DNA of 64,000 nt from Kocuria sp. cx-455 (GTDB lineage: Bacteria > Actinomycetota > Actinomycetes > Actinomycetales > Micrococcaceae). The notes beneath the pieces were generated by a model. The model was given only the letters and a program-made list of their open reading frames with translations. It searched no databases and had not been told where the DNA came from. Each line of letters opens with the position of its first letter. The first letter of the stretch is position 1. The stretch lies in NCBI RefSeq assembly GCF_014698015.1, contig NZ_JACXBS010000006.1, positions 186,001-250,000 on the forward strand. The letters are read 5' to 3'. The translations under genes and the position numbers were made by a program. Positions 44,792 to 61,721 of the stretch are shown here, piece by piece.

Positions 44792-44854
44792 AGTGCATTG
44801 ATTTCACGGCCGCGTCCCTATTGGTCACGGCCGGCAACCGGAAGGACGCAGGTC

Positions 44855-46105: not shown

Positions 46106-46138
46106 CAGCCTTAGGCCCCTTGCAGACCGACGTTCGCC

Positions 46139-46176
46139 GTGCGCCCCGTCCGTTCCAGGGCGGGGTGCACCTTTTT
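46139..46176 (+). terminator. Intrinsic terminator after fmdA
   Basis: Stem GTGCGCCCCGTCC (46139-46151) with GGGCGGGGTGCAC (46158-46170), two mispairs, then C and TTTTT (46172-46176). It lies 33 bp after the fmdA stop. Confidence 0.8.
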
Positions 46177-46269
46177 CTCAGGGTGACTTCAAGCCTTTTC
46201 AACGGGCTCTAAGCAACCACTCCGTACATTCATGGTCGATACCTCAAGCCGCAGAAAGCAGGACTGACC

Positions 46270-47262
46270 ATGAGCCCAATCTTTGGTAAACGCAGCAACC
46301 GATCGTACCCGGCCGCCTCCGAGGGAACCCATGAGACGGCCCAAGACCAGAAAACCTTCGAGGGTCGCCCGCTGGATCGACAGAACGAGGACGTGGAGGA
46401 TCAAGGGCTTGCCTTCGACCTCGGCACCCTGGTCTCACGACGCCGCGCGCTAGGGGTCTTCGGCGCAGGTGCCAGTGTGTTCGCGCTGGCCGCGTGCTCG
46501 GCGAACGCAACGAGCACGAGCAGCCCGTCCGCGTCGGCATCGTCTGCGGCGTCGTCGGCGAGCGCGACTCCCACCGCCACGGCGACCTACGACGAGGAAA
46601 TGCCGGGAGAAACCGCCGGCCCCTACCCCGGGGACGGATCCAATGGGCAGGACGCCCTGGAGATCTCGGGGATCGAGCGCAGCGACATCACCACAAGTAT
46701 CGACGGCGGCGCCACCGCGGACGGTGTGCCCATAACGTTGACCATGAACATCGTGGACATGGTCAACAGTAACGGCCCGCTCACCGGTGCGGCCGTGTAC
46801 GTGTGGCACTGCGACGCGCAGGGAAACTACTCGATGTACTCCGAGGGCCTGGAGGACGTCACGTACCTGCGTGGTGTGCAGGTGGTCGGCGACGACGGCA
46901 CGGTCACGTTCAAGACGATCTTCCCCGGCTGCTACATGGGCCGCTGGGCGCACATCCACTTCGAGGTGTTCCCGGACATCGACTCGATCACGGATGCCTC
47001 CAACGCAATCCTCACCTCGCAGATCGCTCTGCCGGAGGACGCGTGCAACACGGTGTACGCGCGCTCCGAGTACAGCGGTTCCGCACAGGCACTGGCCGCG
47101 GTGACTCTCGACACCGACAACGTGTTCTCCGACGGGTGGGAGATGCAGATGGCCGATGTCACCGGAAACGAGAACAGCGGTTACACCGCGCACATCGATG
47201 TCCCCATCGACACGAGCACGGAGCCGCAGGCGAGCGGGGGAATGGGAGCACCCCCCGCCTGA
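46270..47262 (+). CDS. Exported intradiol dioxygenase-like lipoprotein (Tat signal)
   Basis: A 330-residue protein. A twin-arginine signal SRRRALGVFGAGASVFALAAC (split: RRR at 57-59, lipobox Cys76) comes unusually late, after a 55-residue hydrophilic N-terminus. A Ser/Ala linker then leads to an intradiol dioxygenase fold: GETAGPYPGDGSNGQ, GAAVYVWHCDAQGNYSMY, YLRGVQVVGDDGTVTF and GRWAHIHFEVFPD with the iron-binding Tyr and His residues. The family normally cleaves catechols or protocatechuate; this one is predicted to work outside the membrane. The ring substrate is unknown. It ends before a shared bidirectional terminator. Confidence 0.83.
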   Translation: MSPIFGKRSNRSYPAASEGTHETAQDQKTFEGRPLDRQNEDVEDQGLAFDLGTLVSRRRALGVFGAGASVFALAACSANATSTSSPSASASSAASSASATPTATATYDEEMPGETAGPYPGDGSNGQDALEISGIERSDITTSIDGGATADGVPITLTMNIVDMVNSNGPLTGAAVYVWHCDAQGNYSMYSEGLEDVTYLRGVQVVGDDGTVTFKTIFPGCYMGRWAHIHFEVFPDIDSITDASNAILTSQIALPEDACNTVYARSEYSGSAQALAAVTLDTDNVFSDGWEMQMADVTGNENSGYTAHIDVPIDTSTEPQASGGMGAPPA

Positions 47263-47308
47263 TCCCGAACCCTCGGTCACCAAGGTCACCGGACCACCCG
47301 AAAAAGCC

Positions 47309-47339
47309 GACGCCGCCCGCGAAAGTCGCGGGCGGCGTC
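47309..47339. terminator. Bidirectional hairpin between convergent genes
   Basis: Perfect 14-bp arms (47309-47322, 47326-47339) with loop AAG. On the leftward strand TTTTT follows (47301-47305 complement), giving a good terminator for the YeeE-TusA gene; on the rightward strand it ends the dioxygenase gene. Confidence 0.85.
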
Positions 47340-47364
47340 GTCGTCAATTGCAGCGGAGGTGAGG

Positions 47365-48816
47365 TCAGCCCTTCTTGAGGGTGATCTGCCAGCTGGCCTC
47401 GCCCTTTTCGACGTAGTCGGTGACCTCGTGGCCGTCGGTGGCGGCCCAGTGCGGGATGGCCTCGGTGGCCTGGGTGCAATCGAAGTCAATGACCAGGTGG
47501 TCGCCGGACTGCAGGGTCTTCATGACGTCCTTCGCCTCGATCAGCGGGAACGGGCACACCGCGCCCAGCGAGTCGAGGGCGTAGTAGCCCTCACCCAGGT
47601 CCTTGAGCTTCTTGGACGGCGCCAGGGTCGGGTCCTTGACCATCACCGCGGACGGTGCCGCGGCGAAACCGGAGAACGCGTTGGTGCTCTGCGGGCTCTT
47701 GGACGGGGTCGCGTCAATGGAGTTGCCGGACGGGTTCTCGTTGGAGAGATTGTGGTCCAGGCTCTCGGACGTGGAGTAGGTCTCGGTGTCCTGAGCCCGG
47801 GCGGCGGGCTGCGCAGCGGAGGGCTTGAGCCACAGCTTGGTGCCCGCACCAACGCCCAGGGCGATGAACAGCAGCGCGATCCAACCCTGGAAGCTGAACA
47901 GGCTGGTCTCGACCATGCCGTTACCCACGGTGCACCCACCGGCCAGCGCCGCGCCAACACCCATCAGGACACCGCCGGCGACGGCGCGCACGGTGGTCTT
48001 GGCGTCGGCCACACGAATGCGGAATTCGCCGGTGGCCTTGGCCGCGATGAAGGAACCGACCAGCAGACCCAGCACCAGCAGGGTGCCCCAGTTCATGAAC
48101 TTGGAATCGCCGGTGGTGATGAAGTCCAGGGTGTGGGCGGACGGGGTGGTGATACCCAGGCCGCTGTTGCGACCGGTGGCTGCGGACAGCGGCCAGGCAA
48201 TGACGCCCAGCAGGCCGATCATCCATGCGGCGTTGTAGACGTGCAGCGGGCGCTTCCAGGCCGGGCGATTGTTGAGGCGCGCGGGCTTGGGGCTGCTGGC
48301 TTCGCGGATCATGAAGCGGCGGACCATGATCCCGGTGAACACGGCCAGTGCGATCGCGAAGATCCACGGCGAGATCCCGAGTGCCGCGGGCACGGTGGTC
48401 AAACCGGTGTCCCAGCTGGTCATCCAGGAATTGAAACCATCGAGCATGCCGCCCTTCATGGCGGACGCGGACAGTGCATACATGGCCAGCGCCACCCACG
48501 AACCGACCAGGCCTTCGCCCGAGCGGTACCAGGTACCGGAGGCGCAACCGCCGGCCAGGATGATGCCGATGCCGAACATGAAACCACCGATGATCACGGC
48601 CGCCGGGGCGAACGTGCTGTACTCGGGGGCAATCACGCCCAGACTCGTGAGAGCCGCAAGCCCAATGGCGTGGACGGAAATCACGATGAGCAGTGCCGCG
48701 AACGTGCGCCACGACTTCTGCAGAAAGATGTCCCGCAGCATGCCGGTGACACAGAAGCGACCGCGCTGCATCACGATGCCCAGCACGGCGCCGACGACCA
48801 GACCGGTAAGAATCAT
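47365..48816 (-). CDS. YeeE/YedE thiosulfate transporter fused to a TusA-like sulfurtransferase domain
   Basis: A 483-residue fusion. Residues 1-340 form the YeeE/YedE membrane channel with two repeats and its conserved Cys: RGRFCVTGML, GGCASGTWYRSGEG and GGCTVGNGMVE. After a Ser/Pro linker (about 340-405) comes a TusA fold, YALDSLGAVCPFPLIEAKDV, with the active Cys in CPxP. YeeE moves thiosulfate through Cys relay and TusA proteins accept sulfane sulfur, so uptake and sulfur transfer are tied in one chain. In E. coli-like systems the TusA-type partner (YeeD) is separate. The ATG at 48816 matches YeeE starts. Confidence 0.9.
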   Translation of the reverse strand: MILTGLVVGAVLGIVMQRGRFCVTGMLRDIFLQKSWRTFAALLIVISVHAIGLAALTSLGVIAPEYSTFAPAAVIIGGFMFGIGIILAGGCASGTWYRSGEGLVGSWVALAMYALSASAMKGGMLDGFNSWMTSWDTGLTTVPAALGISPWIFAIALAVFTGIMVRRFMIREASSPKPARLNNRPAWKRPLHVYNAAWMIGLLGVIAWPLSAATGRNSGLGITTPSAHTLDFITTGDSKFMNWGTLLVLGLLVGSFIAAKATGEFRIRVADAKTTVRAVAGGVLMGVGAALAGGCTVGNGMVETSLFSFQGWIALLFIALGVGAGTKLWLKPSAAQPAARAQDTETYSTSESLDHNLSNENPSGNSIDATPSKSPQSTNAFSGFAAAPSAVMVKDPTLAPSKKLKDLGEGYYALDSLGAVCPFPLIEAKDVMKTLQSGDHLVIDFDCTQATEAIPHWAATDGHEVTDYVEKGEASWQITLKKG

Positions 48817-48917
48817 GTGGTGAACCTGATTTTCAGTAGTTGAGGAAGGTGGGAACGCGCAGTCGCGTTCAATGAACCGCACTCCAGTAAACAGGGGCGT
48901 TGCGGCAGGGGCGAGAG

Positions 48918-48930
48918 GTTTGTAACAAAC
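48918..48930. promoter_or_regulatory. Palindrome GTTTGT-a-ACAAAC upstream of the YeeE-TusA gene
   Basis: A perfect 6-bp inverted repeat with a 1-nt centre lies about 102 bp before the leftward gene. GAATGTGACA sits next to it on the leftward strand. It may be an operator for a sulfur-status regulator; no regulator gene is adjacent. Confidence 0.35.
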
Positions 48931-48972
48931 TGTCACATTCAGTTTTTCCCCACGGCCCGGGGGTAATGGGGG

Positions 48973-49803
48973 TCACGCAGGAATGTCGCTCGTGTCGAAC
49001 TTGAAGTACCGGGACAGGACCCGTGCGATGCCCTCGTCGTTGTTGGAGGTGGTCACCAGGTCGGCCGCCGCCTTGGCCTCGGGGATGCCGTTGCCCATGG
49101 CAACGCCCAGGCCTGCGGTGCGCAGCATCCCGATGTCGTTGCCGTTGTCGCCGAACGCCATGACGCGGGACAACGGGATGCCCTGGGCCCGGCCGTAGTC
49201 GGTGATGGCGGAGCCCTTGTCGATCCCGGCGGCGGTGGCTTCCAAGTACAGCGGCGAGGAGTAAGCGAGCTCGACCTGGTCGCCGTAGTCGCGGGTGAGC
49301 TCGTCCAGCAGCGGATCGGTCACGTCCCGCTCGCCCACGAAGAGCACTTTGGTGGGTTGCACGTCCACCTCCGACAGGTCAGCCACGTCGCGAATGGTCA
49401 GGTCATTGCCCGCGGCCTCGTGCTGCGCGTGGGTGTCGGACGAGTCCTCGACCAGCAGCTGATCGTCATGCGGAATCATGACCATGACGTGGTGCTTCTT
49501 GGCCGTGGCGATCAGCGCTCGGGTGACGTCCAGCGGCATGGGGTGACGTGCGATTTCGCGGTCCGTGGCCTGATCCACCACGATCGATCCGTTCATTCCC
49601 GCGAGCACCAGGTCCTGACCCAGGGTCAGTTCACTCGCCAGCTTCTTCAACCCGGGAATGGGGCGCCCTGACGCCAGCATGATGCGCGTTCCGGCCGCGC
49701 GCATGGCCTCGAAGGCGCGCCGAGTTCCCGGTTGAAGGTCCTTGGCGCTGTTCAGCAGGGTGCCGTCCATGTCGAAGGCTACAAGCTGGTAATCGGGGGA
49801 CAT
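48973..49803 (-). CDS. Cof-type HAD-family hydrolase
   Basis: A 276-residue HAD phosphatase of the Cof/IIB group. LVAFDMDGTLLNSAKDL carries nucleophile Asp11 and Asp13, IMLASGRPIPGLKKL is motif II, and VMAFGDNGNDIGMLRTAGLG motif IV with the GDxxND pair. These enzymes dephosphorylate sugar phosphates, flavin or PLP-type cofactors in the cytosol. AGGAGA precedes the ATG, which settles the start. It stands alone between two leftward genes. Confidence 0.92.
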   Translation of the reverse strand: MSPDYQLVAFDMDGTLLNSAKDLQPGTRRAFEAMRAAGTRIMLASGRPIPGLKKLASELTLGQDLVLAGMNGSIVVDQATDREIARHPMPLDVTRALIATAKKHHVMVMIPHDDQLLVEDSSDTHAQHEAAGNDLTIRDVADLSEVDVQPTKVLFVGERDVTDPLLDELTRDYGDQVELAYSSPLYLEATAAGIDKGSAITDYGRAQGIPLSRVMAFGDNGNDIGMLRTAGLGVAMGNGIPEAKAAADLVTTSNNDEGIARVLSRYFKFDTSDIPA

Positions 49804-49875
49804 TCTTCTCCTGTTGCATTGAGGTCGGCCCGTTCGCACCGGGCGGTCTCAACCCTAGTCAGCTCGACCTCGCAC

Positions 49876-50823
49876 TCAGAACGTCAGGACCAGCCGCCCA
49901 CGCACGCCGCCCTCCTGCAAGCGCCGGTGAGCCTCCGTCGCCTGGGAGGCGGGCAACGTATCGGCCACCTCCAGGGTCACGACGCCGCTCTCCACCAATT
50001 CGCGCAGCGCGTCCAGTTTCTCGCCGTGGTGGTATTCGTCGCCCACCCAAACGCGGTGGAAGGTCAGGTCACTGTCCTCTGGGCCTTGCCAGAAGCGCAC
50101 CGTGGCGAATCCTCCCCCTGAGCGAACTGCCGGTATGGCAATCTCATTCATCACGGCGGCATCAACCAGTCCATCCACACCGTCCGGGTAGATGTCGCGT
50201 ACCTTGTCCGCGAAGTCATCGCCTCGCTCCACCACGTGATCGGCGCCGAAGGCGACCACGCGCTCACGGTCCTTTGCGGCGGCGTCGGCGATCACCGTGA
50301 GGCCCTGGAGCTTGGCCAGTTGCACCACGTAACCGCCCAGGGTCCCCGCCGCGCCGGTGACGGCCAGCACCTGACCGGGTTCGAGAGCCGATTTCTCCAG
50401 CGCCTGCGTGGCGGTGAGCCCGTTCATGGGTAGCGTGCTGGCTTCCTCCAAGGAGCGACCTTCGGGGATCCGGGCCAGGGAGTCCGCGTCCGCGACAAGG
50501 TACTGCGCGTACGCACCACCGTGACCCCGCAATGGGATTGCAATCGCCATGACCCGATCACCGACGGACCACCGGGAGGTGTCCAGATCTGCGGTGGGCT
50601 CGCCGACCTCGTCAATTATGCCCGCCGCATCCATTCCCGGTACGTGCGGGGCGGGCAGCTGGGCGGGAGCGCCGTTACCCTGACGCGTCTCCGTGTCCGT
50701 GGGATTGACCGCCGCGGCCTTCACCGCGATCCGAACTTCTCCGGGCCCGGCATGAGGCTCCGGAACATCGTGGACATCGAGAGCCTCGGGCCCTCCGAAT
50801 TCTGTAAATCCAATGACTCGCAT
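49876..50823 (-). CDS. NADPH:quinone reductase-like zinc-free MDR protein
   Basis: A 315-residue MDR enzyme: MRVIGFTEFGGPEALDVHDV start, VNPTDTETRQGN, VPGMDAAGIIDEV and VLAVTGAAGTLGGYVVQLAK with the AxxGxxG nucleotide turn. Catalytic-zinc Cys is absent, as in quinone reductases. It reduces quinones or enones with NADPH. The start overlaps no neighbour; a VOC-family gene begins divergently 74 bp away. Confidence 0.9.
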   Translation of the reverse strand: MRVIGFTEFGGPEALDVHDVPEPHAGPGEVRIAVKAAAVNPTDTETRQGNGAPAQLPAPHVPGMDAAGIIDEVGEPTADLDTSRWSVGDRVMAIAIPLRGHGGAYAQYLVADADSLARIPEGRSLEEASTLPMNGLTATQALEKSALEPGQVLAVTGAAGTLGGYVVQLAKLQGLTVIADAAAKDRERVVAFGADHVVERGDDFADKVRDIYPDGVDGLVDAAVMNEIAIPAVRSGGGFATVRFWQGPEDSDLTFHRVWVGDEYHHGEKLDALRELVESGVVTLEVADTLPASQATEAHRRLQEGGVRGRLVLTF

Positions 50824-50896
50824 GCTTACGTTAACGACTCAGATCGGCAGGAATTCCTGCGGGGCGCCGCGTGTGTTTCGGGACTACGCTCAAGTC

Positions 50897-51337
50897 ATGG
50901 GTATCCAACGGATGGACAACGTGGCCATCGTGGTCAAGGACCTGGACGCCGCCGTCGACTTCTTCACCGAGCTGGGCATGGAGCTGGAGGGGCGCACGCC
51001 CATTGAGGGGCTCTTTGCGGATCAGACCGTGGGCATCGCCGGGCTCCGCAGCGAGATCGCCATGATGCGCACTCCGGACGGGCACGGTCGGGTGGAGCTG
51101 ACCACCTACCACTCCCCCGACGTGATCACGCCGGACCCGCTCGCGCCGGCGCCAAACACCGTGGGCGTGCATCGCATCATGTTCGCGGTGGACGACATCG
51201 ACGACACCGTCGCCCGCCTACGCACCCACGGCGCCGAACTTCTGGGCGAGGTCGGCAACTATGAAAACGTCTACCGCCTCTGCTACCTCCGCGGCCCGGA
51301 AGGCATCATTGTGGCGCTGGCGGAGCAGATCGGCTGA
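50897..51337 (+). CDS. VOC-family (glyoxalase/dioxygenase fold) protein
   Basis: A 146-residue protein with two beta-alpha-beta-beta-beta modules: MDNVAIVVKDLDAAVDFFTE in the first and VHRIMFAVDDIDDTVARLRT in the second, ending in YLRGPEGIIVALAE. It is close to glyoxalase/bleomycin-resistance-like proteins; metal ligands (His, Glu) are in the usual places. Substrate unknown. It ends just before the left copy of the 101-bp repeat. Confidence 0.88.
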   Translation: MGIQRMDNVAIVVKDLDAAVDFFTELGMELEGRTPIEGLFADQTVGIAGLRSEIAMMRTPDGHGRVELTTYHSPDVITPDPLAPAPNTVGVHRIMFAVDDIDDTVARLRTHGAELLGEVGNYENVYRLCYLRGPEGIIVALAEQIG

Positions 51338-51345
51338 CTTTCACT

Positions 51346-51446
51346 GACATTCCACTCCGTCAAAGTGCACTTCAGCGGCCTGCTGAAGCAGTTTTAGGGA
51401 CTGGAATGTTCAGGGGCGCAAGTTCATGCCAGGTCTGTACCCGTTT
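51346..51446. repeat. 101-bp direct repeat, left copy, with 63-nt palindrome
   Basis: This aligns without gaps to 54498-54598 with 12 mismatches (88% identity). Positions 51347-51409 form a palindrome: outer arms ACATTCCA/TGGAATGT, inner stem CTTCAGC-ggcct-GCTGAAG. Positions 51410-51446 are almost identical in the two copies (one mismatch) and encode, leftwards, the last codons TGTDLA and stop of the ABC-F gene. Confidence 0.85.
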
Positions 51447-53091
51447 TCAGACGCATCACCGGCCAGGCCTCGAGATCGTGCAGCATCTGCCGATCATGAG
51501 TGGCCACCACAACGGCGGAGCGGGTGGTCTTAAGCGCCTCGGTCATCTCATCAACCAGCGCCGCGGACAAGTGGTTGGTGGGTTCGTCCAGCAGCAAGAG
51601 ATCGGGCCGTTTCGCCAAGCACAGGGCCAGGTGCAGCCGCCGCCGCTGGCCCTGCGACATGCGACCCACCGGGGTGCCCAACGTTCTTGACTCGAGCAAC
51701 CCGGTATTTGCGAGCGACACCGATGCCGGCCCGCCAGGCTGCTCACGCTCGAGCGCGGTGACATGTCGCTCGTACACCTCGGATACCGTGTGCTCCGGGG
51801 ACCACTGAGGCGTTTCCTGAGACAACCAAACCACCCTTGTTCCCGGATAGTGATTCACCCACCCCGTGGTCGGGTCAATCCGACCGGCCAGAATGCCCAG
51901 CAGCGTGGACTTGCCGGCACCATTGGGGCCAGTGATGAGGAGCCGGTCACCACCTTCAAGGGTCAGATCTACCGGCGTGCGCAACCGGTGCGCCACGGTG
52001 ACATTGACAATCGTCAGCAATGGTTGGCCCTTACGAGTACTGGAATCCGGCCAACGCAGGTGCGCAGGAGGGTTCGGAACCGAGATGATGTGCCGCTCCA
52101 ATTCCTCCTGACGCCTATTGAATGCCTGCACCGTACCGGCCGCTCTGGTGGCCCGCTGGTGTTTGCCGTGCCCCTTCTCGGGGCGCCATCCGGACTTCAG
52201 GCGCCCGCGGGCTTCGTCTGCCGCCTGTGACAGTCGAGTTCTTTCCGCCTGCTGATCCGCATGATCTTGCTCCCAGCGGGCGCGTTCCCTGTTACGGCCT
52301 TCCATCCAGGCCCCGTAACCGCCCGCATACAGCCGCGGGCGGCCGTCCTCACTCGGATCGAGATCCAAGAAACTGGTGGCCACATCGCGCAATAGCGCAC
52401 GGTCGTGGCTCACCAGGGCGACGCCACCGCGGTGCCCCTTCAATCGCTCCGTCAGGAACGTGAGACCAGCGGCATCGAGATGGTTGGTGGGCTCATCCAG
52501 GAGCATGAGGTCCGGATTAGTTCCCAGCACGCACGCCAACCGCACCCGGTAGCGCTGCCCCACGGACAACGTGGATAACAACCGCGAGCGGTCCGCGCAC
52601 GCGTCGAGGCCGGCCAGAGCGACGTCGACCCTGCGGTCCGCGTCCCATGCGTCCAAGGTGGTGGCGAACTCGAGGGCGTGGGCGTACGCGTCGGCGGCGC
52701 CGTCGTGACCTGCGGCCATGGCGTGGGTGGCCTGATCAAGCCGCTCCAGGGCCGCGAGGGAATCCGCAATGGCGTTCTGAATCAGCGACCCGACGGTTTC
52801 ATCGGATCGTGATTCGAGCTCCTGCTCCACAAACGCTACCGTTCCCTCGCGCGTGACCGTACCCGCGTCCGGTTCGGCCATTCCCGCCAAGATACGGAGG
52901 AGTGTGGATTTCCCACGGCCGTTCTCACCGACAATTGCCAACCGCGATTCGGCACTAACGATGACGCTCGCGTCCTTCAGGACCCGCCGATCACCCAGCA
53001 TGACTTCTAGATTGTCGGCGCGAATGTGCGCCGCGGAACCCGCTGGCAGCGCTGTGGGTTGAGGGGTTTCGATGCGATAAGGATTTTGCAC
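51424..53091 (-). CDS. ABC-F family ATPase (ribosome protection/translation factor type)
   Basis: A 555-residue protein with two ABC domains and no membrane part. The first has Walker [10 protein letters not shown] (Arg where most have Ala), signature [12 protein letters not shown] and Walker [13 protein letters not shown]; the second has [21 protein letters not shown] and [12 protein letters not shown]. The charged linker (about 255-325, [20 protein letters not shown]) is the interdomain arm that contacts the ribosome in ABC-F proteins. Relatives confer resistance to macrolides, lincosamides and related drugs or regulate translation. The start is a GTG. It ends inside a repeat copy and is preceded by an attenuator-like leader. 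Confidence 0.9.
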
Positions 53092-53169
53092 TGTACTCTC
53101 TTCGACTCGTCATGGAGCCGGGCAGCACAAACGAACCGCCCGGCAGATGCCAGGACGGCGAGCAGAGTG

Positions 53170-53277
53170 AAAAAGAGATCTAAGAGGACTCCGCCGCCGT
53201 CAGCGGCGAGTCCACAACTTGATCGAAGCTATGCCTTGCATGCGAGACACGGTACGCCCTGGGTCGAGTTTGCTCAA
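53170..53277 (-). promoter_or_regulatory. Attenuator-like leader of the ABC-F gene (promoter, terminator hairpin, U-tract)
   Basis: Reading leftwards: -35 TTGAGC (53272-53277 complement), 17-bp spacer, -10 TACCGT (53249-53254 complement), then a hairpin with arms GGACTCGCCGC (53203-53213) and GCGGCGGAGTCC (53186-53197) with one bulge, then a run of five U (53170-53174). All lie 80-190 nt before the ABC-F start. This is the layout of ribosome-mediated attenuation known for several ABC-F resistance genes. Confidence 0.6.
53200..53241 (-). CDS. Putative leaderless leader peptide, 13 aa, MQGIASIKLWTRR
   Basis: The ATG at 53241 lies 7-8 nt after the -10, so transcription would start at or next to it (leaderless). 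Its TGA (53200-53202) falls in the loop of the terminator hairpin, and its last codons form the left arm. A stalled ribosome would therefore prevent the terminator. An alternative longer frame of 39 codons starts further up. No ribosome site is seen for either. Confidence 0.4.
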   Translation of the reverse strand: MQGIASIKLWTRR

Positions 53278-53354
53278 CCGTCGCGCGGGCGAATGCCATG
53301 GGGCCGCATGCGCCCGGCGGCGCAGGGTTTAATATGACCCCTCGGAGGCTATGC

Positions 53355-54305
53355 ATGACTGACCTACATTTCCGCGAATGGAAAACTCCCGCCGGATTCG
53401 CAACATCGGCCGTGATTCCGGAGAAGCTGAGCTGCGGGATATACGAACTCTCGTTCACCAACGGGGAGCTCTACGTTGGACGGACGATCAATTTCCCAGC
53501 CAGATTCTCGACCCACCGACGACGGTGGGATGACATTGAAGCGGTTAGATTTGCGGAGGCGATTCCCGAGGAGCTGGACGACAAGGAACGAGCTACAAGC
53601 CAATCGCGGGTCAAACAGAAGAAACAACTTCGCAACAAGACCTTGTTGTCGCAGCCAGTAGGACCCTCACCGCTGGACCTCATCGTTGATCCCCAGGCAC
53701 AAACTGAATGGTTGCAGCACGATGCAGATTCAGAACCGCCCGGTGTGGATCCTGAACGCGTCACCCTTGCCCAGCGGCGCGTCAAATCCAGGATCAAATT
53801 CGACCAACTCCGAGACCACGCGGAATTCCCAGCGTTGATGGAATCCGTAAGCGCCTACGTTTCACAAGTCATTGTGTGGCCACAAGAAACAGAAGGCCGC
53901 CAATGGACATTAACGGCGCTTCCCAGCACCGCGCGGCACAAAGTGAACCGGCGCCTGGCTGCGCTGAGTATTCATAACGTTGAGGTTCTGGTGTTCGGCG
54001 AGATGTTCTGGGAGGACACTAGCGCTTGGGAAACTTATACCTTCATGAACACCGCGATCATGTCTGAAGTTCCGCAGGAAATCCAAGATCTCACCGAACT
54101 GACCGCAGGCTACCGGTCCACAGGAACTGTGCACCGAGTATCCACAGCCGGCCTACACGCAATTCCGCCCCTGCTCGAAATACCGGAAGTCCTACGGGCA
54201 GCGCGTCAACTGGCCATGGGCCAGCTCCGGAAAGGATCATCGGTTCTAGCGCGGCACCACAACGACTCTTTCGCTGATGAAGTCTTCGCTGCTATGGACC
54301 TCTAA
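53355..54305 (+). CDS. Unrecognised protein with N-terminal GIY-YIG nuclease-like domain
   Basis: A 316-residue protein. Residues 25-60 read CGIYELSFTNGELYVGRTIN then FPARFSTHRRRWDD, a GIY...YVG pair with the downstream Arg of GIY-YIG nucleases. The remaining 250 residues (VDPERVTLAQRRVKSRIKF, WPQETEGRQWTLTALPST) match nothing I know and could bind DNA or a partner protein. CGGAGG precedes the ATG. It diverges from the ABC-F gene and lies between the two 101-bp repeats. Base composition is less GC-rich than the flanks, which suggests recent acquisition. A homing-type or defence nuclease is possible but unproven. Confidence 0.6.
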   Translation: MTDLHFREWKTPAGFATSAVIPEKLSCGIYELSFTNGELYVGRTINFPARFSTHRRRWDDIEAVRFAEAIPEELDDKERATSQSRVKQKKQLRNKTLLSQPVGPSPLDLIVDPQAQTEWLQHDADSEPPGVDPERVTLAQRRVKSRIKFDQLRDHAEFPALMESVSAYVSQVIVWPQETEGRQWTLTALPSTARHKVNRRLAALSIHNVEVLVFGEMFWEDTSAWETYTFMNTAIMSEVPQEIQDLTELTAGYRSTGTVHRVSTAGLHAIPPLLEIPEVLRAARQLAMGQLRKGSSVLARHHNDSFADEVFAAMDL

Positions 54306-54308
54306 CAG

Positions 54309-54364
54309 TCGCGGGGAAGGTACTGCAATAGTTGCACCTGGATGTAACTTTCGCAGTACCGCGA
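54309..54364 (+). other. Nested hairpin directly after the GIY-YIG gene
   Basis: Outer TCGC/GCGA and perfect GGTACTGC / GCAGTACC (54319-54326, 54353-54360) enclose a second stem AGTTGCA / TGTAACT (54330-54336, 54343-54349, one G-U) with loop CCTGGA. No U-run follows. It may be a terminator, an RNA element or a DNA recognition structure. Confidence 0.5.
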
Positions 54365-54435
54365 AACTCTCTGGCTAAATGGGCAAGAAGCGCTAAGAAT
54401 GCAGTCACTCTGGGGCCAGTTTGTGCGGCCTCTGA

Positions 54436-54487
54436 TGGCTTGAGAGCGACTGAGATCTTGCCGGTGGCTTGAAACCGCCTGAGATCT
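54436..54487. repeat. Two 23-nt direct repeats, period 29
   Basis: TGGCTTGAGAGCGACTGAGA... (54436-54458) and TGGCTTGAAACCGCCTGAGA... (54465-54487) differ at three positions. They lie 10 bp before the right 101-bp repeat. They could be protein-binding sites or remnants of an insertion. Confidence 0.5.
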
Positions 54488-54497
54488 CATGGCCGCC

Positions 54498-54598
54498 GAC
54501 ATTCCAGTCCGTAAAAATGCATTCCAGCGGCATGCTGAGGCACTTTCCGGGACTGAAATGTTCAGGGGCGCAAGTTCATGCCAGGTCCGTACCCGTTT
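54498..54598. repeat. 101-bp direct repeat, right copy, with 63-nt palindrome
   Basis: Same element as at 51346-51446. The palindrome spans 54499-54561 (arms ACATTCCAGTCC / GGACTGAAATGT, one mispair; inner CAGC-ggcat-GCTG). The part 54562-54598 gives, leftwards, TGTDLA and the stop of the TPR-SDR gene. Confidence 0.85.
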
Positions 54599-55910
54599 CT
54601 CTCACACCCAGCGCCCACACCGCGTCGGCGCCCAGGGTAGAGCGCCCGCGCCGCGAAACTTCCTGGGCCTCCGGCTTACCCCTCCACTTCATGAACCCGT
54701 CCGGGCCGATGTAGCTCAGCGGCGGATGGTCTCCGACCGCGGCCTCGGCTAGGGGTAGAGCACCATCCGCGGCGGACTGAGAGAACGGGGACGTGAGTCT
54801 GACGACCATTTGATCCAGGAACTCACTCCCCGTAACGTTCTGAAGTCCCGTAGCCGCCCAACCCGGATGCGCACATGTCACCACCACCCGAGAGCCGAGC
54901 CGCTCCTGCAACGCCCGGGCCCACAGCATGTCGCACAGCTTGGACTGCGAGTAGGCGGTCAACGGGTTCCACCGACGCCTGCGGAAATGCGGATCATTCA
55001 TGTCAACCCGCCCCACCTTGTACGAGTCCGACCCCGTAATCACAATGCGCTCTCGCACCCGATCGCCGATCAGGTTGGTCAGTGCGAACGGCCCCAGGAA
55101 ATTGGTGCCGAGCAGCATCTCAAAACCGTCCGCGGTCTCGCGCCGCTTCGGCGAAACAGCCCCGGCGTTGTTGACGAGCACGTCGATATCAGTGGTCAAC
55201 GAGTTGGCGAACCGGCGCACGGACCCGAGATCCGCAAGATCCATGCTCGGCGTTTCGATGCGACCTGCACTTCCACTAGTGGCCGTCACTAACGACGCCG
55301 CTCTCTCCCGATTCCGCGCCGGCGCCACAACCACTCCGCCAGCAGCAGCCACCCCGAGCGCCAGCTCCCTACCGATCCCACTGGTCGCTCCGGTGATGAG
55401 CCATGTGCGGCCAGATTGGTCGGGGAGGTCGAGTGCGGTCAAGGGTAAAGACGTCATCACACCACGGTATGCGCGCTCCTCCAAACGTTGACGCAAACGT
55501 TGAAGACCCTGGGCGATGAACTGTAGGTATCCGTCCCGTTCCAGTTCTTGCAAGGCCAACTCGCCCGATTCGAGTTGCTTCCACGCGTCCTCGATACGAC
55601 CCATCCGCAGGTAGCCGTCCCCCGCATTCAAGTGCAGACTCGGCGCGAATCCCTTGGCGCTGGGAACCCCGATTGGGGCGAGATCGGCGTCGGAGACATG
55701 AACGAATTCAGCGAGTGCGCGTTCATCCCATTCGACCTCTGCAGCCACAGTGGACTGCAAGTCTGCGAGGTAGTGCGCTATCACGCACCGCGGCGCGTGC
55801 TCGGCCGACGTCGTGTCGGACCAGCACTCGCGCAGCGCCTTTTCTCCGAGTTCATGGTGACCGCTCAATGTCAGCTGGACGGCATCCAGAACAGCGCCCC
55901 AATCAGTCAT
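54576..55910 (-). CDS. TPR-like domain fused to a short-chain dehydrogenase
   Basis: A 444-residue protein. Residues 1-150 are a TPR-like module (CVIAHYLADLQSTVAAEVEW, SLHLNAGDGYLRMGRIEDAW) that in other actinobacteria is usually a separate small protein. Residues 165-444 are an SDR: TWLITGATSGIGRELALGVA binds NAD(P), DIDVLVNNAGAVSP is the NNAG motif, and TAYSQSKLCDMLWAR the YxxxK catalytic pair. The junction lies around EERAYRGVMTSLPLTAL, with a possible internal start there. The last residues TGTDLA come from the repeat. The ATG at 55910 fits the TPR module. Confidence 0.72.
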   Translation of the reverse strand: MTDWGAVLDAVQLTLSGHHELGEKALRECWSDTTSAEHAPRCVIAHYLADLQSTVAAEVEWDERALAEFVHVSDADLAPIGVPSAKGFAPSLHLNAGDGYLRMGRIEDAWKQLESGELALQELERDGYLQFIAQGLQRLRQRLEERAYRGVMTSLPLTALDLPDQSGRTWLITGATSGIGRELALGVAAAGGVVVAPARNRERAASLVTATSGSAGRIETPSMDLADLGSVRRFANSLTTDIDVLVNNAGAVSPKRRETADGFEMLLGTNFLGPFALTNLIGDRVRERIVITGSDSYKVGRVDMNDPHFRRRRWNPLTAYSQSKLCDMLWARALQERLGSRVVVTCAHPGWAATGLQNVTGSEFLDQMVVRLTSPFSQSAADGALPLAEAAVGDHPPLSYIGPDGFMKWRGKPEAQEVSRRGRSTLGADAVWALGVRETGTDLA

Positions 55911-56071
55911 TGACCCAGTATCCCCTTCACTCGCGCAACGGACCCGCAATCTGATCGACGTTGCGGCCCTCGCGGCCGGACCAGTGCATCCTGATCGACA
56001 GTCGAGCCACTAAACCCGGTTTTCAGGGTCTTTAGGTCGATTAGAGTGCAGAGCGCTGAGCTGTCACGGTC

Positions 56072-56128
56072 CTACCGTCGATCGATCTCCTCCAGGTTCT
56101 TGGTACTGGTCGTCCTCGTCTCAGCCAT
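56072..56128 (-). pseudogene. Possible truncated N-terminus of an FMN-binding oxidase-like gene, 18 codons
   Basis: A leftward frame MAETRTTSTKNLEEIDRR preceded by GGGTGGGAG. The T-R-T-T...K-N-L pattern resembles the start of pyridoxamine 5'-phosphate oxidase-like proteins, but it stops after 18 codons. Either a gene remnant or chance. Confidence 0.25.
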
Positions 56129-56163
56129 ACTCCCACCCTAGAAACCCAGGGTGAATAGCTCAG

Positions 56164-56739
56164 TCACCCCTCGACCGGAACCGACCGCACCACCCTCGCC
56201 GGAGAACCGACCACCACGGCATTGACGGGGACATCCTTGGTGACCACGGAGGCAGCGGCGACCACAGCGCCGTCGCCAATCGTGACGCCCGGCAGAACCG
56301 TGACATTCGACCCCAGCCACACGCGCTTGCCAATGACGATCGGCGCGGGGTGCATGTCCGCACGGCGGGCGGGATCCAGGTCGTGATTGAGGGTCGCGAG
56401 CAGGGCGTTGTGACCAATCAACGAATCGTCGCCAACGCTCACCCCTCCCTGATCCTGGAACTTGCAGCCGGAATTGATGAAAATCCGCTTCCCCAGGGTG
56501 ATGTTCTTACCGAAGTCGCTGTAGAACGGCGGGAACAGTGCCACGGATTCGTGCACCGGCTTACCGATCAGTTGAGCCAACAGCTCCAGTACGCGCGTGG
56601 GCTCGTGGTAGCCGCCGTTGAGCTCAGCGGTCACGCGCAGGGCATCCTGGCTGATCCGATGCATCACGGCATGCAGTGGCGAACCGCCGGTAATGGTTTC
56701 GCCAGCGCCGAGCGCGGCGAGCAGATCGTCGAGTTCCAT
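56164..56739 (-). CDS. Maltose/galactoside O-acetyltransferase-type hexapeptide enzyme
   Basis: A 191-residue left-handed beta-helix acetyltransferase. FPPFYSDFGKNITLGKRIFI, CKFQDQGGVSVGDDSLIGHN and TLNHDLDPARRADMHPAP (catalytic His) match the Maa/LacA family, and the hexapeptide repeats continue through VLPGVTIGDGAVVAAASVVT. It transfers acetyl from acetyl-CoA to a sugar hydroxyl. The ATG follows TTAGGAGACG. It is 15 bp downstream of the alcohol dehydrogenase gene and probably in the same operon. Confidence 0.9.
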   Translation of the reverse strand: MELDDLLAALGAGETITGGSPLHAVMHRISQDALRVTAELNGGYHEPTRVLELLAQLIGKPVHESVALFPPFYSDFGKNITLGKRIFINSGCKFQDQGGVSVGDDSLIGHNALLATLNHDLDPARRADMHPAPIVIGKRVWLGSNVTVLPGVTIGDGAVVAAASVVTKDVPVNAVVVGSPARVVRSVPVEG

Positions 56740-56754
56740 GTTCGTCTCCTAACG

Positions 56755-57777
56755 TCAGGGCCTGAGCAAGACTTTGATGGCCTTGCGCTCGTCCATGGCC
56801 TGGTATCCCTCTGCGGCGCGGTCGAGAGGGAGTTCGAGGTCGAAGACCTTGCCCGGCTCGATCCTTCGGTCCCAGATCAGCTGAATCAATTCGGGCAGGA
56901 ACCGCCGCACCGGCGCGGGCCCACCGTGCAGGTGCACCAGCCCGAAGAACAGTTCCAGGCCGTTGAGTGAGACATCGTGCGAGACGCCCACGTAGCCCAC
57001 ATGCCCACCGGGCCGGGTCGACTGGACCGCCTGCATCATGGATTCCTGGGTGCCCACCGCTTCAATCACGCTGTCCGCGCCCAGCCCGTCGGTGAGTTCT
57101 TTGATCTTCTCGACGCCGGCCTCCCCGCGTTCTTCCACGATGTCCGTGGCCCCGAATTCCTTGGCGAGCTTCTGGCGGGATTCGTGGCGGCTCATCGCGA
57201 TGATTTTTTCTGCTCCCAGCTGTTTGGCGGCCAGCACTGCCATGAGGCCGACGGCGCCGTCCCCGACTACCGCAACAGACTTACCGGGCCCCGCCTCGGC
57301 TGCGACGGCTCCGAACCAACCGGTTCCGAGCACGTCGGAGGCGGCGAGCAGGGAGGGAATCAGATCGCCGTCGGGCTGGCCCGGGGTGGCGACCAGAGTG
57401 CCGTCGGCATAGGGAATGCGCGCGTACTCGGCCTGGGTACCAATCTGACCATCGACGAAAATACCGTTGACGCAGCGGGACTGGTAACCATTGGCGCAGA
57501 TGGGGCACGTGTTGTCCGAGATGACGAACGAGCCCACCACGAAATCGCCAGGCTTCACTGTCTTGACGTCGTCGCCGATCTGCTCGACGACGCCCACGTA
57601 TTCGTGGCCCATGTGCTGGTTCTCAGCCGGGTCCGCGCCGCGGTATGGCCACAGATCTGAACCGCACACGCACGCGGCCACGATCTTGATGACTGCGTCC
57701 GTGGGTTCCTGAATGATGGGATTTTCGCGTTCTTCGACCCGGACGTCGCCGGGCCCGTGCAGTACTACTCCGCGCAT
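56755..57777 (-). CDS. Zinc-dependent alcohol dehydrogenase
   Basis: A 340-residue MDR enzyme with ACVCGSDLWPYRG and MGHEYVGVVEQ of the catalytic zinc, DNTCPICANGYQSRC as structural zinc region (three Cys visible) and VAVVGDGAVGLMAVLAAKQ as the NAD-binding turn. It probably oxidises an alcohol or reduces an aldehyde. GAGGAGA precedes the ATG. It diverges from a MerR gene across a perfect palindrome, which makes it the likely MerR target, and is followed by an acetyltransferase gene. Confidence 0.9.
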   Translation of the reverse strand: MRGVVLHGPGDVRVEERENPIIQEPTDAVIKIVAACVCGSDLWPYRGADPAENQHMGHEYVGVVEQIGDDVKTVKPGDFVVGSFVISDNTCPICANGYQSRCVNGIFVDGQIGTQAEYARIPYADGTLVATPGQPDGDLIPSLLAASDVLGTGWFGAVAAEAGPGKSVAVVGDGAVGLMAVLAAKQLGAEKIIAMSRHESRQKLAKEFGATDIVEERGEAGVEKIKELTDGLGADSVIEAVGTQESMMQAVQSTRPGGHVGYVGVSHDVSLNGLELFFGLVHLHGGPAPVRRFLPELIQLIWDRRIEPGKVFDLELPLDRAAEGYQAMDERKAIKVLLRP

Positions 57778-57820
57778 GGTGTTCTCCTCAAAATTTTGGT
57801 CAGTGGTTTGATGGTCACAG

Positions 57821-57836
57821 TTGAAGTTCACTTCAA
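57821..57836. promoter_or_regulatory. MerR-type operator TTGAAGT-tc-ACTTCAA
   Basis: Perfect 7-bp arms between the divergent alcohol dehydrogenase and MerR genes. On the leftward strand TTGACT and GACCAT lie on either side at a 19-bp spacing, the overlong spacer typical of MerR-activated promoters; the -10 match is weak. Confidence 0.65.
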
Positions 57837-57870
57837 GTCAAGGACCCGTCAAGAGTTTCTAGGAGACGCC

Positions 57871-58566
57871 ATGACCTACACCATCGGAGAAACTGCGGAG
57901 CTACTGGGGGTTCCGGCCTCGACCATGCGCTACTACGACAAAGAGGGGCTATTGCCAGAGCTTTCCCGAGGTGCCGGGGGACGACGAGTGTTCGCGGACA
58001 AGGATCTCGAGGCCCTCAAAGTCATCGACTGCTTGAAGCAGTCCGGCCTCCACATCAGTGAGATCCGCCAATTCATGCAGTGGTACCAGCAGGGCGATGA
58101 GACGCTTGAGCAGCGCCGGGCGCTGTTCCAGAACTGCCGAGCTTCGTTGATCGAACAAATGAAACAGCTCCAACGCACTCTGGAGATCGTTGAGTACAAG
58201 TGCTGGTACTACGAAACGGCCACCCGTCGTGGCTCCGAGAGAGCGGTTCTCGACCTGCCGGAGGACCAGATTCCCGAGCGTATTCGCGGTTACAGGGGCC
58301 GGCTCGAGGTCTCAGCGAGGGCCCCGCCCAGCCCCGGCCGAGGTACCGGACCAACAAGTTCAAAAAGAGACGCGGAGATAGTGCCCTCCGGCCGCTCTTC
58401 CCGAATTACCTCACGAACCAGGCCGCTGCACACCCTCAAACACCCGCAGCAAATCCGCCGCCACACTCACGGCAATGACCGCGGGCTCCTTGCCGGTGAT
58501 ACCCGGAATGCCGATGGGGCAGGAAATCCGGCTGATGGCGGCGACGTCGTGGCCTTCGTCGCTTAA
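57871..58566 (+). CDS. MerR-family regulator with run-on C-terminus
   Basis: Residues 1-70 are a MerR winged helix (MTYTIGETAELLGVPASTMR, GRRVFADKDLEALKVIDCL), followed by a coiled dimerisation helix to about residue 125 (CRASLIEQMKQLQRTLEIV) and ending in the normal tail ERIRGYRGRLE near 145-150. The frame then continues for some 80 more codons of low-complexity Arg/Pro/Thr sequence, and the last 156 bp overlap xdhC antisense. A lost stop or frameshift near residue 155 is likely, since this part has no regulator-like character. It should act on the divergent alcohol dehydrogenase promoter. AGGAGACGCC precedes the ATG. Confidence 0.8.
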   Translation: MTYTIGETAELLGVPASTMRYYDKEGLLPELSRGAGGRRVFADKDLEALKVIDCLKQSGLHISEIRQFMQWYQQGDETLEQRRALFQNCRASLIEQMKQLQRTLEIVEYKCWYYETATRRGSERAVLDLPEDQIPERIRGYRGRLEVSARAPPSPGRGTGPTSSKRDAEIVPSGRSSRITSRTRPLHTLKHPQQIRRHTHGNDRGLLAGDTRNADGAGNPADGGDVVAFVA

Positions 58567-59223
58567 GCGTTTGCGGAAACGCGACCATTTGGCGGAGGAC
58601 CCGATCAGCCCCACCGTGCCCAGGTCACCGCGGCGCAGGGCGGTGTCGCAAAGGATGAAATCCTCCGAATGGTCGTGGCTCATGATGAGCACGTGCGCGC
58701 CGGCCGACAGCTCGGTGAGAGTGGTTTCCGGCGCGGGGCTGTGGTGGAGGTGGACCTGGGCGGTTCCCTTCAAAACGTCCGCGAACCGGTCCGGATCCAG
58801 CTGGTCGGCCCGGCTGTCCACCAGATGCACCGTCACGGGAAATCGGGACAGCACCCGCGCCAGCTCATACCCCACGTGTCCCACACCGAAAATCGCAACC
58901 GTGGGCCGGGCCCGCTGCGGTTCGAGCAGCACGGTGACCACGCCTCCGCAGCACTGTCGGCCGTGCTTCACGGTGGCGTGCTCGTTGAGCGAGAAGGTCA
59001 TGGTCTCGGGTTCGGAACCGCCCGCGGTAAGTATCGCCCGGGCGCGTTCGATCACGGTCGCCTCCAGGTTCCCGCCGCCCACGGTGTCCCAGACCTGTGA
59101 CTCGCTCACGACCATCTTGGCCCCGGCTTCCCTGGGCGCGTGCCCGCGTACCTCGATCACCGTGATCAGCACGCCCGCGAGGCCTTTCCCGCGCAAGTGC
59201 TGCAGGGCGTCCAACCAGTCCAT
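58411..59223 (-). CDS. xdhC: XdhC-family molybdenum-cofactor insertion protein
   Basis: A 270-residue XdhC: an N-terminal XdhC/CoxI module (LAGVLITVIEVRGHAPREAG, VWDTVGGGNLEATVIERA, KHGRQCCGG) and a C-terminal Rossmann module (VAIFGVGHVGYELARVLSRF, LIGSSAKWSRFRKRL). It binds the sulfurated molybdenum cofactor and loads it into xanthine dehydrogenase, encoded by the two genes just upstream. Start ATG at 59223, 29 bp after the xdhB stop. The 3' end overlaps the convergent MerR run-on. Confidence 0.93.
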   Translation of the reverse strand: MDWLDALQHLRGKGLAGVLITVIEVRGHAPREAGAKMVVSESQVWDTVGGGNLEATVIERARAILTAGGSEPETMTFSLNEHATVKHGRQCCGGVVTVLLEPQRARPTVAIFGVGHVGYELARVLSRFPVTVHLVDSRADQLDPDRFADVLKGTAQVHLHHSPAPETTLTELSAGAHVLIMSHDHSEDFILCDTALRRGDLGTVGLIGSSAKWSRFRKRLSDEGHDVAAISRISCPIGIPGITGKEPAVIAVSVAADLLRVFEGVQRPGS

Positions 59224-59252
59224 GTCAGTAGTCCACGTCAGGTGTGCAGCCG

Positions 59253-61721
59253 TCAGCGTGCGGTCGCGGCGGCGTCCGGCACATCCTCGGACGCGGTCGC
59301 CGACGCCGCCTCGTCAGCCGACCCGACCTCCGACGACGACGCCGCCCGGTCCCGGCGCGCGTCCCGGGAACCGGAAGCGCCGCACTGCGCGAGCGCCCTG
59401 CGCGCATCCTGAACCGCCCAGAACACCGCCTCAGGAGTGGCCGGGCTGGCCAACAGGACACTGTGCCCTTCCGGCCCGAACGCCGCCGCGGCCTCCCGCA
59501 GTGCCTCTCGCACGCTGAACGCCAGCATCAGCGGCGGCTCGCCCACGGCCTTGGACCCGTACACCACGCCGCTCTCGGTCGCTTTCTCGAACAGGTGCAC
59601 GTTGAACTCTTCGGGCATTTCCGAGAAGCTCGGCAGCTTGTACGTGCTCGCGGCCTGAGTGGTCAGACGGCCGCGGGAAGGGCCATCGGACTCGTCCCAG
59701 CGCAGGTCCTCCAGCGTGAGCCAACCGGCGCCCTGCACGAAGCCGCCCTCGATCTGCCCGATGTCGATCAGCGGGGACAGGCTGTCGCCCACGTCATGCA
59801 CGATGTCCGTGCGCAGCAACCGGTACGCGCCCGTGAACCCGTCCACCTCCACCTCGGAGACCGACGCCCCGTAGGAGAAATACTTGAACGGTTCACCCTG
59901 CATCCGGTCCGCGTCCCAGTGCAGCCCCTCGGTGCGGTAGTACCCGGCGGCCCACAGGGAGATCCGCTGGAAATACGCATCGTGGGCCAGCTCGGCAAAG
60001 GACATCTGCCGGTCGTGAAAACCGATGCCGGTGACCGTGCCGTTGACGAACCGTACGTCGTCGGGATGGATGTTGAACTTGCGCGCCGCTACTTCTGCCA
60101 GCCGGTCGCGAATCTGCTCACACGCGTTCTTGACCGCGCCGCCGTTGAGGTCCGCGCCGGAACTGGCCGCCGTGGCGGAGGTGTTGGGGACCTTGTCGGT
60201 GCGCGTGGGCGCTAATCGCACGGTCTCCAGTGGCACGCCCAGTGCGGTGGCCGCGACCTGCCGCATCTTGGTGTGCAGCCCCTGCCCCATTTCCGTGCCG
60301 CCGTGATTTATGAGCACGGAGCCGTCCCGGTACACGTGCACGAGCGCACCGGCCTGGTTGAATGCGGTGAGGTTGAACGAGATTCCGAACTTCACCGGGG
60401 TGACCGCGAGCGCGCGGTGGGTATCGGGGTGGGTTGCGTTGAAGTCTTCGATCTCGGCACGCCGCTCCCGCACGTCCGCGCGCTGGTGCACCTGGTTCCA
60501 GATCTCGGCCAAGCGCTCCGCATGGCGCACCGGCTGACCGTAGGGTGTGCTCTGGCCCGGCACGTAGAGGTTGCGGGCGCGCAGTTCCGTGGGATCCAGG
60601 CCGAGCAGCGGTGCGCACCGACCCAGGATGTCCTCGATCACCAGCATGCCCTGCGGCCCGCCGAACCCGCGGAAGGCGGTCTGCGAGGTCTTGTTCGTCT
60701 GCGCGACCCGCCCGTGGACCTCCACGTTGGGGATCCAGTAGGCGTTGTCGATGTGGCACAGCGTCCGCTGCATCACCGGCTCCGAGAGATCCAGGCTCCA
60801 CCCGCCGTCACTGGTCACGGTGGCCCGCAGCGCTTGGAGGCGACCGTCGTCGTCGAACGAAACGTCCCAGGACGCGTGATAAGGGTGGCGCTTGCCGGTG
60901 ATCGTAATGTCCTGATTGCGCGTCAGCCGCAAGCGGACCGGCCGCCCGGTGAGCGTGGCCCCCAGCGCGGCGATCGCGGCAAAACCATGCGGCTGCATTT
61001 CCTTGCCGCCAAAGCCACCGCCCATGCGCAGGCATTGCACCGTGACGTCGTGGTTGTCCAGGCCCAGCACGCGCGCCACGATTTCCTGCGTCTCACTCGG
61101 GTGCTGGGTGCTGCACTGGACGAACACCTGCCCGCCCTCATCCACATACGCGAACGACGCGTGAGTCTCCAGGTAGAAGTGTTCCTGCCCGCCGAACTCG
61201 ATCTCCCCGCTGAAGCGGTGGGTCCCGTTGGCCAGGCCAGTTTCGACGTCGCCGCGGCTCACCGTGGGTTGGCGGCCCTGGAAACTCTGGGCCGCAATGG
61301 CTTCCGTGAGAGTGATCAGGGACGGCAGGGGTTCGTACTCGACCTTGATCGTTTCCGCTCCGAGCCGTGCGGCTTCCAGGCTTTCCCCCAAGACCCAGCA
61401 CACGGCGTGGCCGTGGAACATGACTTCGCTGGGGAACAGGGGTTCGTCCTCCTTGATGCCGGCGTCATTGATGCCCGGCACGTCCTCCGCGGTGAGAACC
61501 CGGGCCACGCCGGGCACGTCGAGGGCGGGGACGACGTCCAGGGACGTCACCCGTGCGTGGGCGTGCGGGGCCTGCAGCGGCCAGGCATGGAGCACGTTCT
61601 GATGGCGAACAACGAGGTCGTCGGTGTAGAGCGCGCACCCCGTGGCGTGCTCGGCACCGTGCTCGTGGGCCACGGTCACGCCGACCACCGGGTTCTCGGG
61701 GCGTTCTGCGAGGGATTTCAT
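59253..61721 (-). CDS. xdhB: Xanthine dehydrogenase molybdopterin-binding subunit
   Basis: An 822-residue molybdenum subunit. Visible motifs: VTVAHEHGAEHATGCALYTD, GGQEHFYLETHASFAYV, CLRMGGGFGGKEMQPHGF, TAFRGFGGPQGM, and the catalytic Glu region AVGEPPLMLAFSVREAL. Together with the small subunit and the XdhC product it oxidises hypoxanthine and xanthine to urate. The last 45 residues are a disordered Ala/Ser/Asp tail. The ATG overlaps the xdhA stop by 4 bp, with GGAGGTATCC before it. A much longer upstream frame is just the antisense of xdhA. Confidence 0.95.
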   Translation of the reverse strand: MKSLAERPENPVVGVTVAHEHGAEHATGCALYTDDLVVRHQNVLHAWPLQAPHAHARVTSLDVVPALDVPGVARVLTAEDVPGINDAGIKEDEPLFPSEVMFHGHAVCWVLGESLEAARLGAETIKVEYEPLPSLITLTEAIAAQSFQGRQPTVSRGDVETGLANGTHRFSGEIEFGGQEHFYLETHASFAYVDEGGQVFVQCSTQHPSETQEIVARVLGLDNHDVTVQCLRMGGGFGGKEMQPHGFAAIAALGATLTGRPVRLRLTRNQDITITGKRHPYHASWDVSFDDDGRLQALRATVTSDGGWSLDLSEPVMQRTLCHIDNAYWIPNVEVHGRVAQTNKTSQTAFRGFGGPQGMLVIEDILGRCAPLLGLDPTELRARNLYVPGQSTPYGQPVRHAERLAEIWNQVHQRADVRERRAEIEDFNATHPDTHRALAVTPVKFGISFNLTAFNQAGALVHVYRDGSVLINHGGTEMGQGLHTKMRQVAATALGVPLETVRLAPTRTDKVPNTSATAASSGADLNGGAVKNACEQIRDRLAEVAARKFNIHPDDVRFVNGTVTGIGFHDRQMSFAELAHDAYFQRISLWAAGYYRTEGLHWDADRMQGEPFKYFSYGASVSEVEVDGFTGAYRLLRTDIVHDVGDSLSPLIDIGQIEGGFVQGAGWLTLEDLRWDESDGPSRGRLTTQAASTYKLPSFSEMPEEFNVHLFEKATESGVVYGSKAVGEPPLMLAFSVREALREAAAAFGPEGHSVLLASPATPEAVFWAVQDARRALAQCGASGSRDARRDRAASSSEVGSADEAASATASEDVPDAAATAR

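Follow-up and report, generated by a model that had tools for sequence, protein, structure and literature searches.

Genes and repeats at the locus

We analyzed a stretch of 64,000 nucleotides (nt) of DNA, referred to as a whole as the window, from the 3.06-Mb Kocuria-like genome of Kocuria sp. cx-455 (designated G000). Within it, two copies of a 101-bp direct repeat enclose an ABC-F ATPase gene and a putative GIY-YIG nuclease-like gene, the whole lying between a glyoxalase-family gene and a gene encoding an SDR protein. Each copy is made up of an imperfect palindrome of about 64 nt, which we call R, and a 37-nt flank. A preliminary description of this DNA had likened the arrangement to a gene cassette with a palindromic site; to us, the shared repeat looks less like a new system of gene cassettes than like the outcome of copying a gene end. 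The features of the locus are as follows, L036 and L038 being the corresponding loci of Kocuria carniphila (genome G018) and of a third genome (G002):

50813-51337, plus strand: glyoxalase-family gene, conserved left border of a variable islet
51346-51410, unstranded: left palindrome R, a 65-nt model match between the stops of the glyoxalase (plus) and ABC-F (minus) genes; probable two-way terminator
51410-51446, minus strand: left 37-nt flank, comprising the TGTDLA codons plus two bases, the ABC-F stop and 14 nt; most likely a copy of the SDR gene end
51424-53091, minus strand: ABC-F ATPase gene, 555 aa, C-terminal tail probably replaced
53298-54305, plus strand: putative gene for a GIY-YIG nuclease-like protein, 335 aa in the ORF list; the 316 aa starting at 53355 served for searches
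54396-54490, unstranded: second repeat family, T; one diverged copy in the window, two copies each in L036 and L038
54498-54562, unstranded: right palindrome R, a 65-nt model match between the GIY-YIG (plus) and SDR (minus) genes
54562-54598, minus strand: right 37-nt flank, most likely the native SDR gene end (TGTDLA and stop) with 14 nt
54576-55949, minus strand: SDR gene with an N-terminal extension, a 457-aa open reading frame (ORF) whose SDR part (293 aa) starts at about 55457

The two copies of the repeat (51346-51446 and 54498-54598) lie in the same orientation, start 3152 nt apart and are identical at 89 of 101 positions (88%), just as the preliminary description had reported. A chance origin of the pair is excluded because none of 100 shuffles contained a 22-base piece of the flank, even with up to three mismatches allowed; the window contains it twice. 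Eleven of the 12 differences between the copies fall in the first 64 positions, i.e. in the palindrome, and one in the flank, but this imbalance (11/64 versus 1/37) is borderline (Fisher P = 0.051) and carries no weight in what follows. Read on the minus strand, the flank consists of the last six codons of a gene (TGTDLA), its stop codon and 14 further nt. Indeed, the leftward ABC-F and SDR ORFs both terminate in TGTDLA followed by a stop, which confirms the shared C-terminus described initially. The palindrome noted in each copy is likewise real, albeit imperfect: each copy, when read on the minus strand (the one that encodes ABC-F and SDR), folds into a long hairpin (z = -3.3 and -4.1).

An exact scan for the flank core, in which identity over 22-24 bases was required, gave no match in genome contigs or in viral contigs (collections that may omit the window genome itself), and the 101-bp unit matched no plasmid. 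A search of Rfam up to E = 1 returned two matches, both to eukaryotic RNA families and far under the gathering scores.

Palindrome R as a family of gene-end hairpins

R is a member of a small hairpin family dispersed within a single Kocuria clade. When a 111-nt region spanning the left copy was compared with its own genome, the window pair gave the only full-length matches. A covariance model, built on ten copies of which two came from the window, recognized at least seven copies in G000, those beyond the window pair being located at C1:248282, C1:268287, C1:269425, C7:76258 and C2:524229. The model was then applied to the 27 genomes of the genus, 150 of the several hundred first-look candidates being scored per genome, and yielded matches at E <= 0.01 in at least seven of them: strong ones in G000, G018 (which corresponds to K. 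carniphila CCM 132 at the window locus), G002 and G023, and, in G024, G017 and G001, weak matches that are shorter or differ. In a family-wide search of 149 genomes with stricter filters, the only match among the results listed was in G000; this search is of little help on close kin since those results do not cover G018, G002 and G023. In the alignment of 18 copies, 17 measure 65 nt and one 66 (the model itself was built on copies of that length), with arms of about 23 positions each. Note that a fixed-core pattern requiring perfect inner arms detects none of the G000 copies. No paper on such Kocuria palindromes was present among the literature matches listed. In G024, a 49-nt palindrome containing the R core (L072 4812-4860) lies just 3' of a relative of the SDR gene (about 47% identity).

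As anticipated from the window pair, further copies occur at the 3' ends of unrelated genes: all seven copies in G000 lie directly 3' of a gene, and six of the seven lie between convergent genes, compared to a base rate of 88 convergent junctions out of 407 (binomial P = 0.0006; junctions were defined with a crude gene caller on 400 kb of G000 plus the window, 464 kb in total). Three of the seven (C1:248282, C7:76258 and C2:524229) are solitary, and two of these three sites are also occupied by R in other species. R is found at the junction between a DsbA-like and a tRNA-synthetase-like gene in G000, G018 and G023, and at the end of ackA in the same three genomes (these gene names are our readings of the translations).

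The two arms of R covary. Over the 18 aligned copies, 84% of the cells are paired, and the covariation score (0.186, versus 0.139 for shuffled alignments) was equaled by none of 500 shuffles. We also compared the 200 nt downstream of ackA in the 27 genomes, the stem found in each being assessed against 20 shuffles of the same sequence that preserved base composition only. R is present in three genomes, and 13 others (G001, G005, G006, G008, G011, G012, G015, G017, G019, G020, G024, G025 and G026) carry a hairpin of different sequence whose stem scores above every one of its 20 shuffles, with a score of at least 13 in ten cases. A short core, AAGTGCA, is common to R and some of these 13 hairpins, and one of them was found again at other sites in three of eight genomes of another clade. 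The end of ackA thus often has a hairpin, of differing sequence, which fits the expectation for a terminator.

The core of R (AAAAGTGCA...TGCACTTTT) provides A- and T-tracts on both strands; on either strand the inner stem has a T-tract after it, yet this tract lies inside the full stem. In G017, the R core makes a simple stem with T6 behind it. The best reading of R is that of a hairpin that would end transcription in both directions between converging genes, termination being what we infer from the sequence.

The shared gene end, the variable islet and other motifs

A search for the SDR protein in the 27 genomes of the genus gave nine matches, including that of the window, the close ones being confined to G000, G002 and G018. 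A TGT motif is present near the C-terminus of seven of the eight relatives (the window's own protein excluded): the G002 protein has TGTDLA, the G018 gene encodes TGTDLA past a frameshift, and five other relatives have TGT followed within two residues by L or F and P. The motif is missing from the most distant relative, in G016. By contrast, none of the six ABC-F relatives whose tails were examined (the six closest but one of 29 other ABC-F loci) has a TGTDLA-type tail; five stop at or just after a W..L.L motif and one has an unrelated 12-residue tail. Judging by the C-terminal sequence of the window ABC-F, the grafted segment would start at about the native end. Among the R copies listed, the 37-nt flank occurs only beside an SDR gene or on ABC-F. 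Since TGT is found in seven of eight SDR relatives and is absent from the six ABC-F relatives, TGTDLA is most likely native to the SDR gene, ABC-F carrying a captured SDR gene end together with its terminator. The window copies are 88% alike, compared to 78-79% with the SDR-side copy of G018 and 73-74% with that of G002. The copying would therefore postdate the split from G018 and G002, unless gene conversion homogenized the two copies.

The event that we propose is a copying of the SDR gene terminus, from the last six codons through the stop and 14 nt to R, onto the 3' end of ABC-F. The stop and terminator that ABC-F originally had would have been lost in exchange, and its product, altered at the extreme C-terminus, would have acquired the SDR tail. 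All this would have taken place within a glyoxalase-SDR islet whose cargo varies between species. Ordinary homologous or template-switch recombination at hairpin-forming repeats of gene ends, without a dedicated recombinase, would most likely have brought this about, and the same recombination would also let the cargo of the islet change. Such a copying event would explain the odd C-terminus shared by two unrelated proteins, and suggests that a gene end and its terminator can be transplanted as one unit.

The glyoxalase side of the islet was searched for in 16 of the 26 other genomes of the genus and was found at full length in two of them, G018 and G002. The cargo consists of the ABC-F and GIY-YIG genes in the window, of the GIY-YIG gene alone in L036 and of an AbiEi/AbiEii pair plus one ORF in L038. 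As had been supposed from the window, the interval between the repeats is therefore variable: the glyoxalase and SDR flanks are shared and the cargo differs in all three genomes that hold both flanks. An emptied interval with a single R, which the preliminary description had envisaged, was found in none of the 16 genomes searched; G002 has one R, with other cargo at the islet. In each case the cargo is flanked by direct repeats, namely R and its flank in the window, R and a 97-nt T (89% identity) in L036, and T (73 nt, 74%) in L038. The left-hand homology between the window and L036 breaks at 51346, exactly at the edge of R. In K. carniphila, two R copies surround the GIY-YIG gene, but the left one is devoid of the SDR flank and is preceded by a sequence resembling that found before the right R of the window; the extent of the left repeat therefore differed between the two lineages.

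T, which combines a hairpin with units at a 29-nt spacing, was seen at the islet in all three genomes (window 54396-54490; L036 7861-7957 and 9055-9151; L038 5997-6069 and 7972-8044), and a partial match to it lies in L156, near ackA of G010. At the ackA locus of G000, an orphan gene encoding a 329-aa protein lies between two R copies. This gene, for which Pfam, NCBIfam and PADLOC gave no match at E <= 0.01, has relatives in G018, G023 and G010, the last being a genome without any R match (gene and relatives: L066 6352-7341; L070 108-1013; L154; L156). The C-terminus of the 329-aa protein resembles DUF559.

As for the cargo of the window, the GIY-YIG assignment made initially is plausible, but the Pfam score remains below the cut-off (PF01541, E = 0.0011, 19.7 bits versus 22.6); a contig search returned a single relative of the protein, from K. 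carniphila (78% identity). The top NCBIfam matches of ABC-F are ribosomal-protection ABC-F models, under their cut-offs. The 457-aa SDR ORF has the appearance of a fusion: the N-terminal ORF and the SDR gene are separated in L036 and L038 by a NUDIX-like gene (an interpretation of its translation), and where L036 has about 516 bp, the window has 21 bp. The frameshift of the K. carniphila SDR gene (L036 9382-10323; L146) lies ahead of its TGTDLA end.

Two further motifs recur in the genome. The 11-mer GACGACGCCGC (often CGACGACGCCGC[TC]C) occurs 52 times in a 400-kb sample of G000 C1 (L181-L200), versus 0.9 expected under a third-order Markov model, with 26 occurrences per strand and 45 of the 52 inside crude gene calls; seven occurrences lie in the window. 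In small samples of each genome of the genus, it was seen in 15 of 27 and not in the other 12. By its abundance, this 11-mer resembles a DNA uptake sequence; Micrococcus luteus, which belongs to the same family as Kocuria, is naturally transformable. GTTTCACGTGA, which we take to be part of the parS consensus, occurs 14 times in the same 400-kb sample.

Alternative explanations and known systems

Taken jointly, a terminator family and the copying of the SDR end onto ABC-F in a variable islet account for the locus with a probability that we put at roughly 0.7. Several observations weigh against this reading. The window copies are weak palindromes: their strict stem scores are low (10 and 7; for the various ackA flanks scored alongside, the highest value among 20 shuffles lay between 6 and 12), and their folding on the plus strand is modest (z = -1.9 and -0.7). 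No U-run comes after the full stem of R. A scan with a terminator consensus called no full R; of the two window copies it recovered just the right one, and there the inner stem alone, among seven sites in total versus 3.7 expected. One copy, C1:269425, is not at a convergent junction, and strong hairpins in general are only somewhat enriched at such junctions (34/85, versus 60/207 at co-directed and 17/70 at divergent ones). As for covariation, further pair types are about as numerous as in the shuffles (21 versus 20.5), and 16 of 500 shuffles match the count of pairs altered on both sides. At the end of ackA, ten of the 27 genomes lack a hairpin exceeding its shuffles, and in G002 a contig edge falls inside R. 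Finally, the left-hand homology with L038 breaks at 51335, 11 nt before R.

Would R, and T with it, rather be palindromic recombination sites between which accessory genes move as cassettes, as first thought? G000 does contain two loci where accessory genes lie between two R copies that both match the model best on the same strand (ABC-F and GIY-YIG here, the 329-aa orphan by ackA), the cargo of the islet differs in three out of three genomes with direct repeats of R or T in each, and the L036 homology breaks at the R edge. However, a portable site attached to a cassette is hard to reconcile with the solitary copies (three of seven), some of them at junctions common to several species, or with a repeat unit that reaches into coding sequence through a flank native, most likely, to the SDR gene. 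R was found within about 1.5 kb of GIY-YIG relatives in G000 and G018 only, and around none of seven ABC-F relatives (the loci compared reach about 1.5 kb on each side, so that the left R of the window falls outside L117). In agreement with the preliminary description, no RYYYAAC/GTTRRRY core box of the attC type lies within 20 nt of either copy on either strand, and no integrase is encoded among the 14 window proteins scanned with Pfam (44798-62333), no genome-wide search for recombinases having been made. Movable cassettes thus appear improbable. The GIY-YIG protein was also considered as the enzyme moving R, and dropped: relatives occur in 24 of 295 genomes of the family (its own included), with R nearby in G000 and G018 only.

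The dispersal of R, its uniform length (17 of 18 copies at 65 nt) and its confinement to a few related genomes could also betray a small non-autonomous mobile palindrome, akin to miniature inverted-repeat transposable elements (MITEs) or repetitive extragenic palindromes (REPs), that inserts at gene ends, termination being a by-product. This is rather unlikely, given that only seven copies were found in G000, that neither a target duplication nor an empty site was seen among the loci compared, and that positions are conserved across species and biased toward convergent 3' ends. An ABC-F gene joined to the SDR tail on a plasmid or circle and integrated by a single crossover at R and its flank would be expected to leave a direct repeat around the insert, as observed; but the 101-bp unit matches no plasmid, and one crossover cannot explain both genomes because K. 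carniphila has two R copies and no left copy of the flank, which makes this scenario very improbable. A more speculative extension of the terminator reading, to which we attach a small but not negligible likelihood, is that terminator hairpins double as preferred exchange points. The hairpin-prone R and T direct repeats would then let short accessory genes of defence type be swapped between convergent resident genes and, occasionally, whole gene ends (last codons, stop and terminator) between unrelated proteins, without a dedicated recombinase.

Integron attC cassettes are defined by their core boxes and by the integrase that acts on them. The window resembles them in that a gene is followed by an imperfect palindrome and the cargo is accessory; unlike them, R has no core boxes and no integrase among the neighbours scanned, the Kocuria repeat enters coding sequence, and R copies are solitary elsewhere. 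In the minimal mobile elements of Neisseria, conserved flanking genes surround alternative accessory cargo. The islet behaves likewise, with constant flanks and alternative cargo in related genomes, but it was found in three genomes only. REP/RAYT palindromes and MITEs are dispersed short palindromes; R is one too, outside genes, but it has few copies, whose positions are conserved between species.

The closest likeness is to bidirectional intrinsic (Rho-independent) terminators: the R hairpin lies between two stops, and its inner stem is preceded by an A-tract and followed by a T-tract on both strands. R differs from them by its very long arms (about 23 positions each), in whose stem the tracts are buried, and by the occurrence of one sequence family at several unrelated loci. 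Compensatory stem changes such as those seen in R are reported for Bacillus cereus terminators (PMC5381666). Gene-end hairpins persist in place while their sequence differs between clades, and the present locus hints that terminator hairpins at convergent junctions mark settling places of accessory genes. Both the terminator family and the probable graft add modestly to what is known, each being a further case of a known kind.

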